Assembly (NCBI RefSeq): GCF_002776575.1
Contig: NZ_CP022548.1
Coordinates: 1,193,001-1,257,000, forward strand
Origin: Sphingorhabdus sp. YGSMI21
Lineage (GTDB): Bacteria > Pseudomonadota > Alphaproteobacteria > Sphingomonadales > Sphingomonadaceae
Direction: 5' to 3'
DNA: 64,000 nt
Each line of letters begins with the position of its first letter. Within the stretch, counting starts at the first letter, position 1. The notes under the pieces were generated by a model that made no database searches, was not told the origin of the DNA, and saw only the letters and a list, made by a program, of their open reading frames with translations. Shown here piece after piece: positions 56,015 through 60,306 of this stretch. The position numbers were made by a program, and so were the translations under genes.

Positions 56015-56036
56015 GCGGCTGCTTTTCCCGAGAGCG

Positions 56037-56120
56037 TCTTTGCGAGCGCAGCGAAGCAATCCAGAGCGGCGTGCGCGCCATCTGGATTGCCACGTCGCCT
56101 GCGGCTCCTCGCAATGACGA
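56037..56120 (+). repeat. Palindromic intergenic repeat, family A (GCGCAGCGAAGCAATCCAG type)
   Basis: Left arm TGCGAGCGCAGCGAAGCAAT, continuing CCAGA; right arm TCTGGATTGC...CCTCGCAATGACGA reads back as a similar sequence. Such 'TTGCGAG...CAATCCAG' inverted repeats are dispersed in many proteobacterial genomes. Located between the small membrane gene and the next unknown gene. Confidence 0.8.
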
Positions 56121-56203: not shown

Positions 56204-56234
56204 AGGCGATAGCCACTGAAAGGAGTTTGCTGTG

Positions 56235-56654
56235 ATGAGCTTACTATTTGTGCTCAGTGCTGCCACGGCCACTGTTCCATTTGAGCCTGTGAGCGTTGGC
56301 CAAATAAGGAATTGGAAACGCCGCATTGAAGAGCGGTGTTTAAAGTCCCGTTTTCCACAGGAGTGCGCTGCGTCTGGATGGGCCGCCTATGGCTCCGGTT
56401 ATGCCTTGTTGACTTGTCGACTAGGCAGAGATCAAAATCGAAAGAACATGTACCGTTACCGCTATCGTAATAACGGTGCCACGCAAAGCGAGATAGACGA
56501 ATTCTGTGGAGATGTGGCGACCGCTTGTGAAACCAATTGGCGGGTTTTCTATAAACGAAGCCGGTCTGCAGCTTTCAAAGAAGATGAACCGATTGACGCC
56601 GAATCGATGCAGAAGAGACTTACGCATCACTGCTACGACAAATCCAGTTACTAG
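56235..56654 (+). CDS. Unknown secreted protein within the SUF operon
   Basis: Not recognised. 139 residues from ATG 56235, with GAAAGGAG (56218-56225) upstream. The N-terminus MSLLFVLSAATATVPFEPVSV is a signal peptide candidate. The rest is cysteine-containing (six Cys: EERCLK, QECAASG, LTCRLG, EFCGDVATACETN, HHCYDK) and basic, so perhaps a small disulfide-bonded periplasmic protein. It separates sufB from sufC; no SUF role known. Confidence 0.6.
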   Translation: MSLLFVLSAATATVPFEPVSVGQIRNWKRRIEERCLKSRFPQECAASGWAAYGSGYALLTCRLGRDQNRKNMYRYRYRNNGATQSEIDEFCGDVATACETNWRVFYKRSRSAAFKEDEPIDAESMQKRLTHHCYDKSSY

Positions 56655-56675: not shown

Positions 56676-57506
56676 ATGCTAAAAATTGAAAACCTCCACG
56701 CCACCGTCGGCGACACAGAAATCCTCAAGGGGCTTTCGCTCACCATCAACGCGGGTGAAATCCATGCGATCATGGGACCCAATGGCGCGGGCAAGTCCAC
56801 GCTGGCTTATGCGCTCGGCGGGCGGCCCGGCTATGAAGTGACTGCGGGGTCGGTGACGTTTACTCCCCTCCCGCTTGCGGGAGGGGCCGGGGGTGGGCAG
56901 ACCTCCGACGAAGCCCCACCCCTAACCCCTCCCGCAAGCGGGAGGGGGGCAGACCTCCTCGCGCTCGATCCGCACGAGCGGGCCGCGGCGGGCATTTTCC
57001 TCGGTTTCCAATATCCAGTCGAAATTCCCGGCGTGTCCAACCTGCAATTTCTGCGCGAGAGCCTGAATGCACAGCGGCTGGCGCGCGGCGAAGACGCGCT
57101 AAACGGCGCGGAATTCATCAAGCTGGCCAAGGAAAAGGCGGCGCTGCTGAAGATGGACATGGATATGCTCAAACGGGCGGTCAATGTCGGCTTTTCCGGC
57201 GGCGAGAAGAAGCGCAACGAGATGGTGCAGATGGGGATTCTCAACCCCAAGCTGGCGATCCTCGACGAGACCGACAGCGGCCTCGATATCGACGCGCTGC
57301 GTACCGTGGGGTCCGGCATCAACGCGATCATGCGCAAGCCCGACAAGGCAGTGCTGCTGATCACCCATTATCAACGCCTGCTCGACGAAGTGAAGCCCGA
57401 TTTTGTCCATGTTCTGGCGAATGGCCGGATCGTGAAGACCGGCGGGCCGGAACTGGCGCTGCAGCTTGAGAATGAAGGCTATGAAGCGATCGCGGAGGCG
57501 GCATGA
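56676..57506 (+). CDS. sufC: SUF ATPase SufC with an in-frame palindromic insertion
   Basis: ABC-type ATPase of the SufBC2D scaffold. Walker A GPNGAGKST (residues ~34-42), signature FSGGEKKRNEM, Walker B LAILDETDSGLD, H-loop LLITHYQRLL. At 276 residues it is about 29 longer than typical SufC (~247). The extra residues 63-91 (TPLPLAGGAGGGQ...PPLTPPASGRG) are the translation of a GC-rich palindromic repeat, placed between GSVTF and ADLLALDPHERA where normal SufC has only a few residues. The frame is open throughout, so it is probably functional with a surface loop. ATG 56676 is the start; no clear ribosome binding site. Confidence 0.92.
   Translation: MLKIENLHATVGDTEILKGLSLTINAGEIHAIMGPNGAGKSTLAYALGGRPGYEVTAGSVTFTPLPLAGGAGGGQTSDEAPPLTPPASGRGADLLALDPHERAAAGIFLGFQYPVEIPGVSNLQFLRESLNAQRLARGEDALNGAEFIKLAKEKAALLKMDMDMLKRAVNVGFSGGEKKRNEMVQMGILNPKLAILDETDSGLDIDALRTVGSGINAIMRKPDKAVLLITHYQRLLDEVKPDFVHVLANGRIVKTGGPELALQLENEGYEAIAEAA
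56865..56947 (+). repeat. Palindromic repeat, family C, inserted in frame in sufC
   Basis: CCCCTCCCGCTTGCGGGAGG and its mirror CCCCTCCCGCAAGCGGGAGG stand at the two ends, each itself a hairpin, and GGGGTGGG / CCCACCCC lie inside: an 83-base double palindrome. The same family occurs at 60208-60306 between the sufT-like and sufA-like genes. Inside sufC it encodes ~28 residues. Confidence 0.9.
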
Positions 57507-57528: not shown

Positions 57529-57612
57529 TGTCGCCCCAGCGCAGGCTGGGGCCCAACCCGTGTCTCGTAAAGGCGCATTTGGTCTGGATGCCAGCCTGCG
57601 CTGGCATGACGA
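57529..57612 (+). repeat. Palindromic repeat, family D (CCCCAGCGCAGGCTGGGG type)
   Basis: CCCCAGCGCAGGCTGGGG at the left and CCAGCCTGCGCTGG at the right form a long inverted repeat around a ~45-base centre, filling the sufC-sufD gap. The sufD ribosome binding site (GAGGTG, 57611-57616) begins where the repeat ends. Confidence 0.85.
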
Positions 57613-58374: not shown

Positions 58375-59660
58375 GCGGGAGCAGCTCTCTTCCGTTCGCT
58401 TCGAGCGAAGTCGAGAAGCCGGTTGTGGCCGATAGTGGTGTCTCGACTGCGCTCGACACGAACGGTGTTGCACCATCTCACCGCGCCGACTTCCCCGGTA
58501 TCGGGCCGGACTGGCACTATCTCGACTCCGCCGCCACCGCGCAGAAACCCAAGGCGGTCCTCGACGCCATAGCCCGCGCCTACGGCCCGGATTACGCCAC
58601 CGTCCACCGCGGCGTCTACGCTCGCTCGGCCAACATGACACTCGCCTATGAAGCCGCGCGCAAACGCGTCGCCGGCTTTCTCGGCGCCGCGTCCGAGAAT
58701 GAAGTCGTTTTCACCAGCGGCGCGACCGACAGTATCAATCTGGTCGCGGAAAGCTGGGGTAACAAGTTCATCGCCAAGGGCGACCGCATCATGCTGTCGC
58801 AGCTGGAGCATCATAGCAATATCGTGCCGTGGCAATTGCTGGCCGAACGGGTCGGCGCGCATATTGATGTCGCGCCGCTAACCGATGATGGTCAGATTGA
58901 TCTCGACTGGATCGAGGAACATTTGACCGAACAGCACAAGCTGGTCGCGCTGGCCCATGTTTCCAATGTGCTCGGATCGTTGCTCGATGGGAAGCGGGCG
59001 GCGGCGATCGCGCACAAGGTCGGTGCCAAGCTGTTGCTCGATGGCTGTCAGGCCGCGCCGCGTCTGCCCGTCAATGTGCAGGATCTCGGTTGCGATTTTT
59101 ATGTTTTCTCGGGGCACAAGATTTACGGGCCGACTGGCATTGGTGCTTTGTGGGCGCCTTATGCGACGCTTGAGTCCATGCCACCCTGGAAGGGCGGCGG
59201 GTCGATGATCGACCGCGTGTCTTTTGACGGTACCACCTATGCACCGCCGCCGGGTCGCTTTGAAGCGGGGACGCCGCATATTGTAGGCGTGGTCGGGCTG
59301 GATGCGGCGATTCAATATGTCGAGGGCATCGGACTGGATGTGATTTCCGAGCATGAAAATGCTACACTGGCCAAGGCGCGCGAAGCCTTGTCCGGGATCA
59401 ACTCGGTGCGGGTCTTTGGCCCGGACAAGAGCATGGGCATTTTGAGCTTCGCGGTCGGTGACGTGCATCCGCATGATGTCGCCACTATATTGGATGAAGG
59501 CGGCGTTGCGATCCGCGCCGGCCATCATTGCGCGCAGCCTTTGATGGACTATCTCGGCGTAGCGGCAACGGCGCGGGCGAGTTTCGGGATTTACAGTAAT
59601 GACAAGGATGTCGCCGCGCTGGTGGATGGCATCAATCGGGTCAGAAAGATTTTCGGGTAA
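58371..59660 (+). CDS. sufS: Cysteine desulfurase SufS with repeat-encoded N-terminus
   Basis: PLP enzyme that supplies sulfur to SufBCD from cysteine. DSAATAQKPKAVLDAI, then HRGVYARSANMT, TSGATDSINLVAES, the PLP lysine in SGHKIYGPTG, and the persulfide cysteine in RAGHHCAQPL. 429 residues are about 25 longer than usual SufS (~405): residues ~8-32 (LPFASSEVEKPVV, STALDTNGV) are the translation of a palindromic repeat at 58392-58465, and the conserved protein starts only near ADFPGIGPDWHYLDS. GTG start overlaps sufD (GTGA). The insertion seems tolerated because it precedes the fold. Confidence 0.93.
   Translation: MSGSSSLPFASSEVEKPVVADSGVSTALDTNGVAPSHRADFPGIGPDWHYLDSAATAQKPKAVLDAIARAYGPDYATVHRGVYARSANMTLAYEAARKRVAGFLGAASENEVVFTSGATDSINLVAESWGNKFIAKGDRIMLSQLEHHSNIVPWQLLAERVGAHIDVAPLTDDGQIDLDWIEEHLTEQHKLVALAHVSNVLGSLLDGKRAAAIAHKVGAKLLLDGCQAAPRLPVNVQDLGCDFYVFSGHKIYGPTGIGALWAPYATLESMPPWKGGGSMIDRVSFDGTTYAPPPGRFEAGTPHIVGVVGLDAAIQYVEGIGLDVISEHENATLAKAREALSGINSVRVFGPDKSMGILSFAVGDVHPHDVATILDEGGVAIRAGHHCAQPLMDYLGVAATARASFGIYSNDKDVAALVDGINRVRKIFG
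58392..58465 (+). repeat. Palindromic repeat, family E, forming the sufS N-terminal coding region
   Basis: Left arm 58392-58420 and right arm 58437-58465 are reverse complements at 24 of 29 positions (left CCGTTCGCTTCGAGCGAAGT..., right ...GCGCTCGACACGAACGG) around a 16-base centre. The TCGAGCG-type arms recall a dispersed repeat of sphingomonads. In frame with sufS. Confidence 0.88.
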
Positions 59661-60207: not shown

Positions 60208-60306
60208 TCCCCCTCCCGCTTGCGGGAGGGGCTAGGGGTGGGGCTACAGTGAGCTTTCGGGCCATCTACAATCCCACCCCCGACCCCTCCCGTAAACGGG
60301 AGGGGA
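60208..60306 (+). repeat. Palindromic repeat, family C, between sufT-like and sufA-like genes
   Basis: CCCCTCCCGCTTGCGGGAGG at the left and CCCCTCCCGTAAACGGGAGG at the right, with GGGGTGGGG / CCCACCCCC inside and a ~34-base centre. Same family as the insertion in sufC. It occupies nearly the entire 116-base gap before sufA, whose ribosome binding site follows directly. Confidence 0.9.

Follow-up and report, generated by a model that had tools for sequence, protein, structure and literature searches.

A turn of single-copy SufC as a probable recurrent landing place for REP-like palindromes in the Sphingomonadaceae

How does a dispersed palindromic repeat come to lie in frame within the gene of an iron-sulfur ATPase, and what becomes of it there? 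The question is raised by sufC of Sphingorhabdus sp. YGSMI21, located at 56676..57506 on the plus strand of a stretch of 64,000 nucleotides that is referred to here as the window (contig NZ_CP022548.1, positions 1,193,001 to 1,257,000; G000:C1:1193001-1257000, where G000 is the window's genome of 4.06 Mb). A first-pass annotation of the window had described an 83-base double palindrome that is read through in sufC, and regarded it as a rare event outside the Rickettsia group. Comparison with related genomes suggests a different scale. Palindromes resembling repetitive extragenic palindromic (REP) sequences and miniature inverted-repeat transposable elements (MITEs) have probably colonised one permissive turn of single-copy SufC repeatedly, replaced each other in it, and left it again.

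A double palindrome in the open frame of sufC

The SufC of the window is encoded by an open frame of 283 aa without an internal stop, which scores 327.1 bits against TIGR01978 (cut-off 212.8) and holds both the Walker A motif GPNGAGKST and the signature region NVGFSGGE. It is the only SufC match in the genome (E <= 1e-20). The profile match is split into two stretches, and so is the alignment with E. coli SufC (1-62 and 90-274), which breaks between E. coli F62 and K63. The repeat-derived loop (56862..56951, plus strand) consists of 90 nt encoding residues 63-92. It replaces a turn of three residues, mostly of the form xGx, which is found at this position in 74 parsed SufC proteins lacking an insert (termed empty; those with an insert are termed filled). 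The net gain is 27 residues (30 replacing 3), close to the 28 or so first estimated. The in-frame peptide, TPLPLAGGAGGGQTSDEAPPLTPPASGRGA, is flanked by GSVTF and DLLALDPHERA, and its earlier placement between a beta strand and the latter segment is supported.

Two perfect class A palindromes are read directly in the open frame, the left one at 56865..56886 (CCCCTCCCGCTTGCGGGAGGGG) and the right one at 56926..56947 (CCCCTCCCGCAAGCGGGAGGGG), as first described. They stand in opposite orientation within a long imperfect inverted repeat (56855..56957) that covers the insert and a few flanking bases; its arms (56855-56897 and 56915-56957) are 84% complementary and 17 nt apart, which is the arrangement of a CGTC-REP dimer. 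Folded as RNA, the hairpin reaches -81.6 kcal/mol (z -8.85), a value equalled by none of 200 shuffles. The class A pattern occurs eight times in the window (four palindromes on both strands), with 0.02 occurrences expected and none of 100 shuffles reaching eight. In the whole genome, allowing up to two mismatches, there are 11 class A palindromes at six sites, namely sufC, a second double palindrome at 60210..60305, and four other places. The segment is thus repeat-derived, as had been proposed from the copy in the nearby intergenic region.

The AlphaFold model of this SufC matches E. coli SufC in a structure comparison and is confident apart from residues 67-89, where the predicted local distance difference test score (pLDDT) is below 50. 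This low-confidence loop lies at the insert, in line with the surface loop for which modelling had been suggested as a check. In the mechanism proposed here, a REP/MITE-like double palindrome would have inserted at the turn of a SufC beta-hairpin, between E. coli F62 and K63, and would be translated as a predicted flexible surface loop that the protein appears to tolerate.

Occupancy and turnover of the SufC turn

The closest named relatives by SufC protein, among the matches listed, belong to Parasphingorhabdus. The genus is represented by 32 genomes including that of the window; 30 have a SufC match, and 29 can be decided, the SufC of G017 being cut by a contig end. Eight are filled (G000, G028, G010, G007, G024, G001, G025, and G005, where the insert is visible and masked bases follow later in the gene), while 21 are empty. 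Relatives thus bear out the first-pass annotation, which had taken the residues for an addition and not for a part of SufC common to most of them. The class A element of the window is shared only with G028; the other six filled genomes carry class B.

A family sample comprised 397 genomes, with a SufC match in 388. An insert at this position is present in at least 40 of the 388 genomes and in 16 of 94 genera; the figure of 40 is a lower bound, since only weak-scoring genomes were suspected and the rest were taken as empty without individual reading. Of 94 weak-scoring suspects, 80 were re-examined (G149, G210, G263, G318, G324, G350, G373, G392, G403, G426, G384, G321, G062, and G117 were left out). 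Among the 79 matches obtained, 37 that covered a C-terminal part were fetched; G169, G194, and G416, apparently cut by contig ends, and G295, where the match starts from residue 30, were set aside. Thirty-six of the 37 fetched loci hold both sides of the turn (in L232 of G400, sufC is cut by a contig end). All 36 are filled at the turn, with a net gain of 24 to 50 residues in one frame; these, together with four genus genomes within the family sample, make up the 40. No insert was seen elsewhere in SufC in the family loci examined.

Databases give a similar picture. The best 120 database proteins for the window's SufC comprise 76 filled and 44 empty ones, and a further 96, the matches listed for a query with another filled insert, comprise 95 filled and one unparsed; both searches were seeded with filled proteins. 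Filled proteins listed under a species name include those of Sphingopyxis lindanitolerans (P0087) and Sphingopyxis soli (P0209). Across 24 genomes from other families in the same order, the parts of the SufC match adjoin, i.e., the turn is empty.

The inserts differ in kind. A set of 118 sufC loci was chosen, with duplicates and some empty loci left out; L042 (G005) remained unparsed due to masked bases, leaving 117 genes, 43 filled and 74 empty. By core sequence, the 43 inserts sort into eight classes, of which B is the largest (16), followed by F and D (6 each), A (5), G (4), and C, H, and E (2 each). These labels denote core patterns of our own, and five loops that match class A as well as a loose C pattern were counted as A. 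In one genus (g74), six classes occur among seven filled species.

A maximum-likelihood tree of the 117 genes was built without the loop; it is a quick tree with 43 of 114 inner branches open, and its figures are round ones. The filled or empty state changes at least 23 times on this tree (shuffled labels: mean 35, minimum 27), and 26 times if 30 more bases are removed on each side of the loop. Among the filled rows, the repeat class changes 23 times, a number reached by 49 of 600 shuffles. In 15 of 43 cases the nearest filled row shares the class, and in 28 it has another; which class occupies the site is nearly unrelated to kinship. Although G383 and G188 diverge by about 4% beyond the loop, one of them is filled and the other empty. 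Filled and empty species border on each other in the genera g74 and g89. In the sisters G181 and G107, the loop ends are alike but enclose repeats of different classes, which suggests that the core has been exchanged.

The notion of a single rare event is therefore not supported: eight repeat classes occupy the same SufC site in at least 16 genera, further in-frame copies exist in other conserved genes of the same genome (see below), and intragenic REPs, also of sphingomonads, were already described in 2013 (PMC3733652). The turn would instead be a permissive one and a recurrent landing place across this bacterial family. Palindromes of many classes would enter it, be replaced, decay, or vanish, with the frame always kept, presumably because SufC is single-copy and has no IscU backup. 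More tentatively, the turn might be a true exchange site, in which the core is swapped between classes while the loop ends stay, possibly aided by hairpin recombination. If so, the family would be running a standing experiment with repeat-derived peptides in one iron-sulfur ATPase.

The need for SufC in this organism bears on the matter. No match to IscU was found in the window's genome, and together with the presence of one SufC this suggests that SufC is probably needed; the description of SufC as essential is likely to hold. In E. coli, deletion of sufC abolishes the SUF pathway (PMC6006206), and a K-12 assay strain deleted for both suf and isc has been described (PMC5571166). In Zymomonas mobilis, knock-down of suf leads to oxygen-specific fitness defects (PMC10746277), so that essentiality should not be assumed.

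Spread, folding, and probable translation of the inserts

Several points weigh against repeated colonisation. Firstly, the midpoint-rooted tree gives 25 gains if there is no loss and 39 losses if there is no gain, and gain and loss are indistinguishable. Secondly, a count of eight classes may overstate their independence, as C to G could be subfamilies within a single REP superfamily and B and H have their outer ends in common. Thirdly, some inserts are far more conserved than the 4-fold sites of their gene: 1/90 differences against 28/136 between G000 and G028, and 3/96 against 40/124 between G024 and G001. G007 and G071, of different genera (g1 and g38), share an 87-nt insert that differs at 10/87 positions (11.5%), against 33/85 at 4-fold sites and 26% over the sufC body. 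Part of the spread may therefore be due to recombination or to constraint on the DNA. Fourthly, Y1 transposases were considered as the mover and rejected: the window's genome has four PF01797 matches (two partial), none of which is flanked by these repeats. No core of the eight classes lies within about 1.5 kb on each side of these matches, unlike in a REPtron, where the repeat flanks the gene of a REP-associated tyrosine transposase (RAYT); an unrelated hairpin occurs near one of the four. Finally, the low pLDDT may merely reflect dissimilar inserts in the alignment behind the model, and both the translation and the mobility of the elements are deduced from sequence.

The first alternative is that loop content spreads mainly by homologous recombination, with filled and empty sufC alleles exchanged between species and insertion being rare. 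This is possible but less likely than not. The shared insert of G007 and G071 in otherwise divergent genes speaks for it, as does that of G024 and G001, which belong to different subclades that also hold empty relatives, and so do loop ends common to loops with different cores. However, exchange of alleles does not readily account for a nearest filled row of another class in 28 of 43 cases. Conversion tracts, sought as raised flank identity beside the loop, gave no clear signal in the six pairs scanned.

In a second alternative, selection would act on the hairpin, which as an RNA or DNA structure would tune the suf operon, while the protein would merely tolerate it. The strong nucleotide conservation in some pairs would fit this, as would the folding of the SufC loops, which for 42 of the 43 is better than in any of their 60 shuffles; such repeats fold by nature, however, so folding is no test of selection. 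The surroundings are also suggestive. In the genus, 14 further repeat sites were found in 28 suf loci (101 kb) outside the SufC loop, compared to none in 30 lhr loci (103 kb) once the Lhr loop is set aside (binomial p 5e-5), but the lhr control is imperfect, as these loci are mostly coding and the repeat sites are not independent by descent. On the other hand, the loop of G320 has lost its hairpin (z -0.87, with 11 of 60 shuffles as good) and has nevertheless kept its frame, and most sampled genomes score as empty (most of them not read singly). In G358 and G271, the insert diverges at the rate of the 4-fold sites (19/96 against 26/139), so nucleotide constraint was rejected as a general rule. 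A selected hairpin is an unlikely explanation. A number of inserts are young, exchanged, or constrained, and others drift.

No frame break or stop was found in any filled sufC locus with both sides present. The parser required one open frame, so insert lengths are multiples of three by construction, and the evidence lies in the fact that no fetched two-sided filled locus failed. Immediately before DLL, 40 of 43 filled genes encode V, I, or L, compared to 3 of 74 empty ones. This difference persists in independent phylogenetic pairs (11.3 to 0 of 13, median p 0.001), extends across loops of different repeat classes, and is seen in 161 of 171 filled database proteins among the matches listed. 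It points to an adjustment made at the level of the protein chain, and the kept frame and the hydrophobic residue before DLL together argue for translation. A second candidate for co-adaptation, valine at the third residue of GSxxF, is present in 41 of 43 filled and 45 of 74 empty genes (Fisher p 2e-5), but the pairs give 5.4:0.2 with a median p of 0.06, and it was not relied on.

The same observations bear on the proposal that the insert is absent from the protein, either through ribosome bypass of the hairpin or through removal from the RNA. A hairpin of about -80 kcal/mol in the message would be an obstacle to translation, but neither the lack of frame-broken or stop-bearing filled genes among the two-sided loci nor the residue before DLL would be needed if the segment were skipped, and this proposal is very improbable. 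An assembly artefact or pseudogene, for which nothing was found, can practically be dismissed, given the same element in G028 and different ones with open frames in dozens of separate genomes.

Related repeats in other genes and in known systems

SufC is not the only gene that carries in-frame repeats, and the idea that it is the sole such site was rejected. With up to one mismatch, the class B core is matched 99 times in the genome of the window, and a reversed control three times. The loci examined, which covered 30 of the core matches listed and another 20 regions, include in-frame copies in an Lhr-like helicase (twice) and, at L279 and L291, in DnaE2 and in the linker of the pyruvate dehydrogenase (PDH) E2 subunit. 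PDH E2 alone passes its profile cut-off (516 against 445 bits), and the other two were scanned as fragments (724 of 850 and 700 of 939). Palindromic repeats thus lie in frame in functionally unrelated genes, class A in SufC and class B in the other three. In the genus, the Lhr loop (loci L070-L072, L295-L324), between AGFLPTL and LYISPLKALA, is filled in 12 of 30 genomes and doubled in G000 and G010; by our reading, its fillings are class B or decayed copies only.

The Rickettsia palindromic elements (RPEs) were reportedly described by Ogata et al. (2000, 2002). The likeness to RPEs drawn by the first-pass annotation stands, as the repeats work in the same way: in an alphaproteobacterium, palindromic repeats lie in frame in unrelated genes and add peptide (PMC10969869); the comparison is one of features, not of sequence. 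What sets SufC apart is that repeats of many classes, in many genera, occupy a single position of a single gene and turn over fast there.

A second likeness is to GTAG and CGTC REPs. PMC3733652 reports these from alphaproteobacteria, including the sphingomonads S. wittichii, S. chlorophenolicum, N. aromaticivorans, S. alaskensis, and E. litoralis. According to the same text, REP dimers encode 20 to 30 residues inside open reading frames, DnaE2 is among the genes hit, and in recB, two Xanthomonas species carry different REPs at nearly the same place. The SufC elements work like these intragenic REPs; the main text of PMC3733652 contains no occurrence of SufC, iron-sulfur, or Fe-S. CGTC REPs end in a CGTC tag or its variants TGTC and CCTC. 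The motif CGTC is absent from the window's loop, where CCTC is present, and 13 of the 43 SufC loops have CGTC in the first 30 nt and GACG in the last 35 nt. A third likeness is to coding MITEs such as QMITE1 of Coxiella, which are short non-autonomous inverted-repeat elements with frames fused to host genes (PMC10969869). In contrast to these, no MITE ends, target duplication, or transposase link were found for the SufC elements.

In the literature searched, most subscription journals being outside its coverage, the matches listed held nothing on repeats in SufC, nor any case of a conserved gene in which a single position harbours many classes of repeat throughout a bacterial family. In-frame palindromes in Rickettsia and intragenic REPs, including those of sphingomonads, are known; what appears to be new, at least to us, is the scale of same-site turnover among many classes. 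The turn offers dozens of natural parallel cases in which repeat DNA probably becomes protein at the same defined place, and sister species with and without the insert are there for comparison. This makes testable how REP-like elements move without a known transposase, how a strong hairpin is tolerated in the message of a needed protein, and whether a repeat-born peptide stays neutral or gains a role.

The suf operon of the window (sufB, sufC, sufD, sufS, a sufT-like gene, and a sufA/erpA-like gene) is itself rich in such repeats. Between 56035 and 60305, five double palindromes of four classes are clustered. Besides the one in sufC, there is a class E-like element upstream of this gene (56035..56119), a class C-like element between sufC and sufD (57529..57611), a class H element (58392..58465, plus strand), and the second class A element (60210..60305), which lies between the sufT-like and sufA/erpA-like genes. 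A core scan of the window placed its class A, C-like, and H cores, along with a single convincing E core, within these 4.3 kb of the suf operon; two further short class E matches look like chance. No core of classes B, D, F, or G was found anywhere in the window. Outside the suf operon, none of the eight classes has a convincing copy in the window; ten further perfect hairpins in that part were left unclassified. A 140-residue open frame lies at 56232-56654, between sufB and sufC.

The class H element lies in frame in a putative N-terminal tail of SufS (LPFASSEVEKP...VSTALDTNG), which may be untranslated, as the SufS start codon is unproven. Among eight readable genomes of the genus, the SufS N-terminus carries class H in two, class B in one, an A-like element in one (by eye, the core pattern being unmatched), and none in three, with one unclear. 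The core scan placed a class A core at the equivalent position of G028. As a separate observation, the class A insert in SufC of L238 (G401) itself contains an additional insertion, likewise in frame, within its right arm (QFQVNDAPHRSGQAGGLTDLKL).
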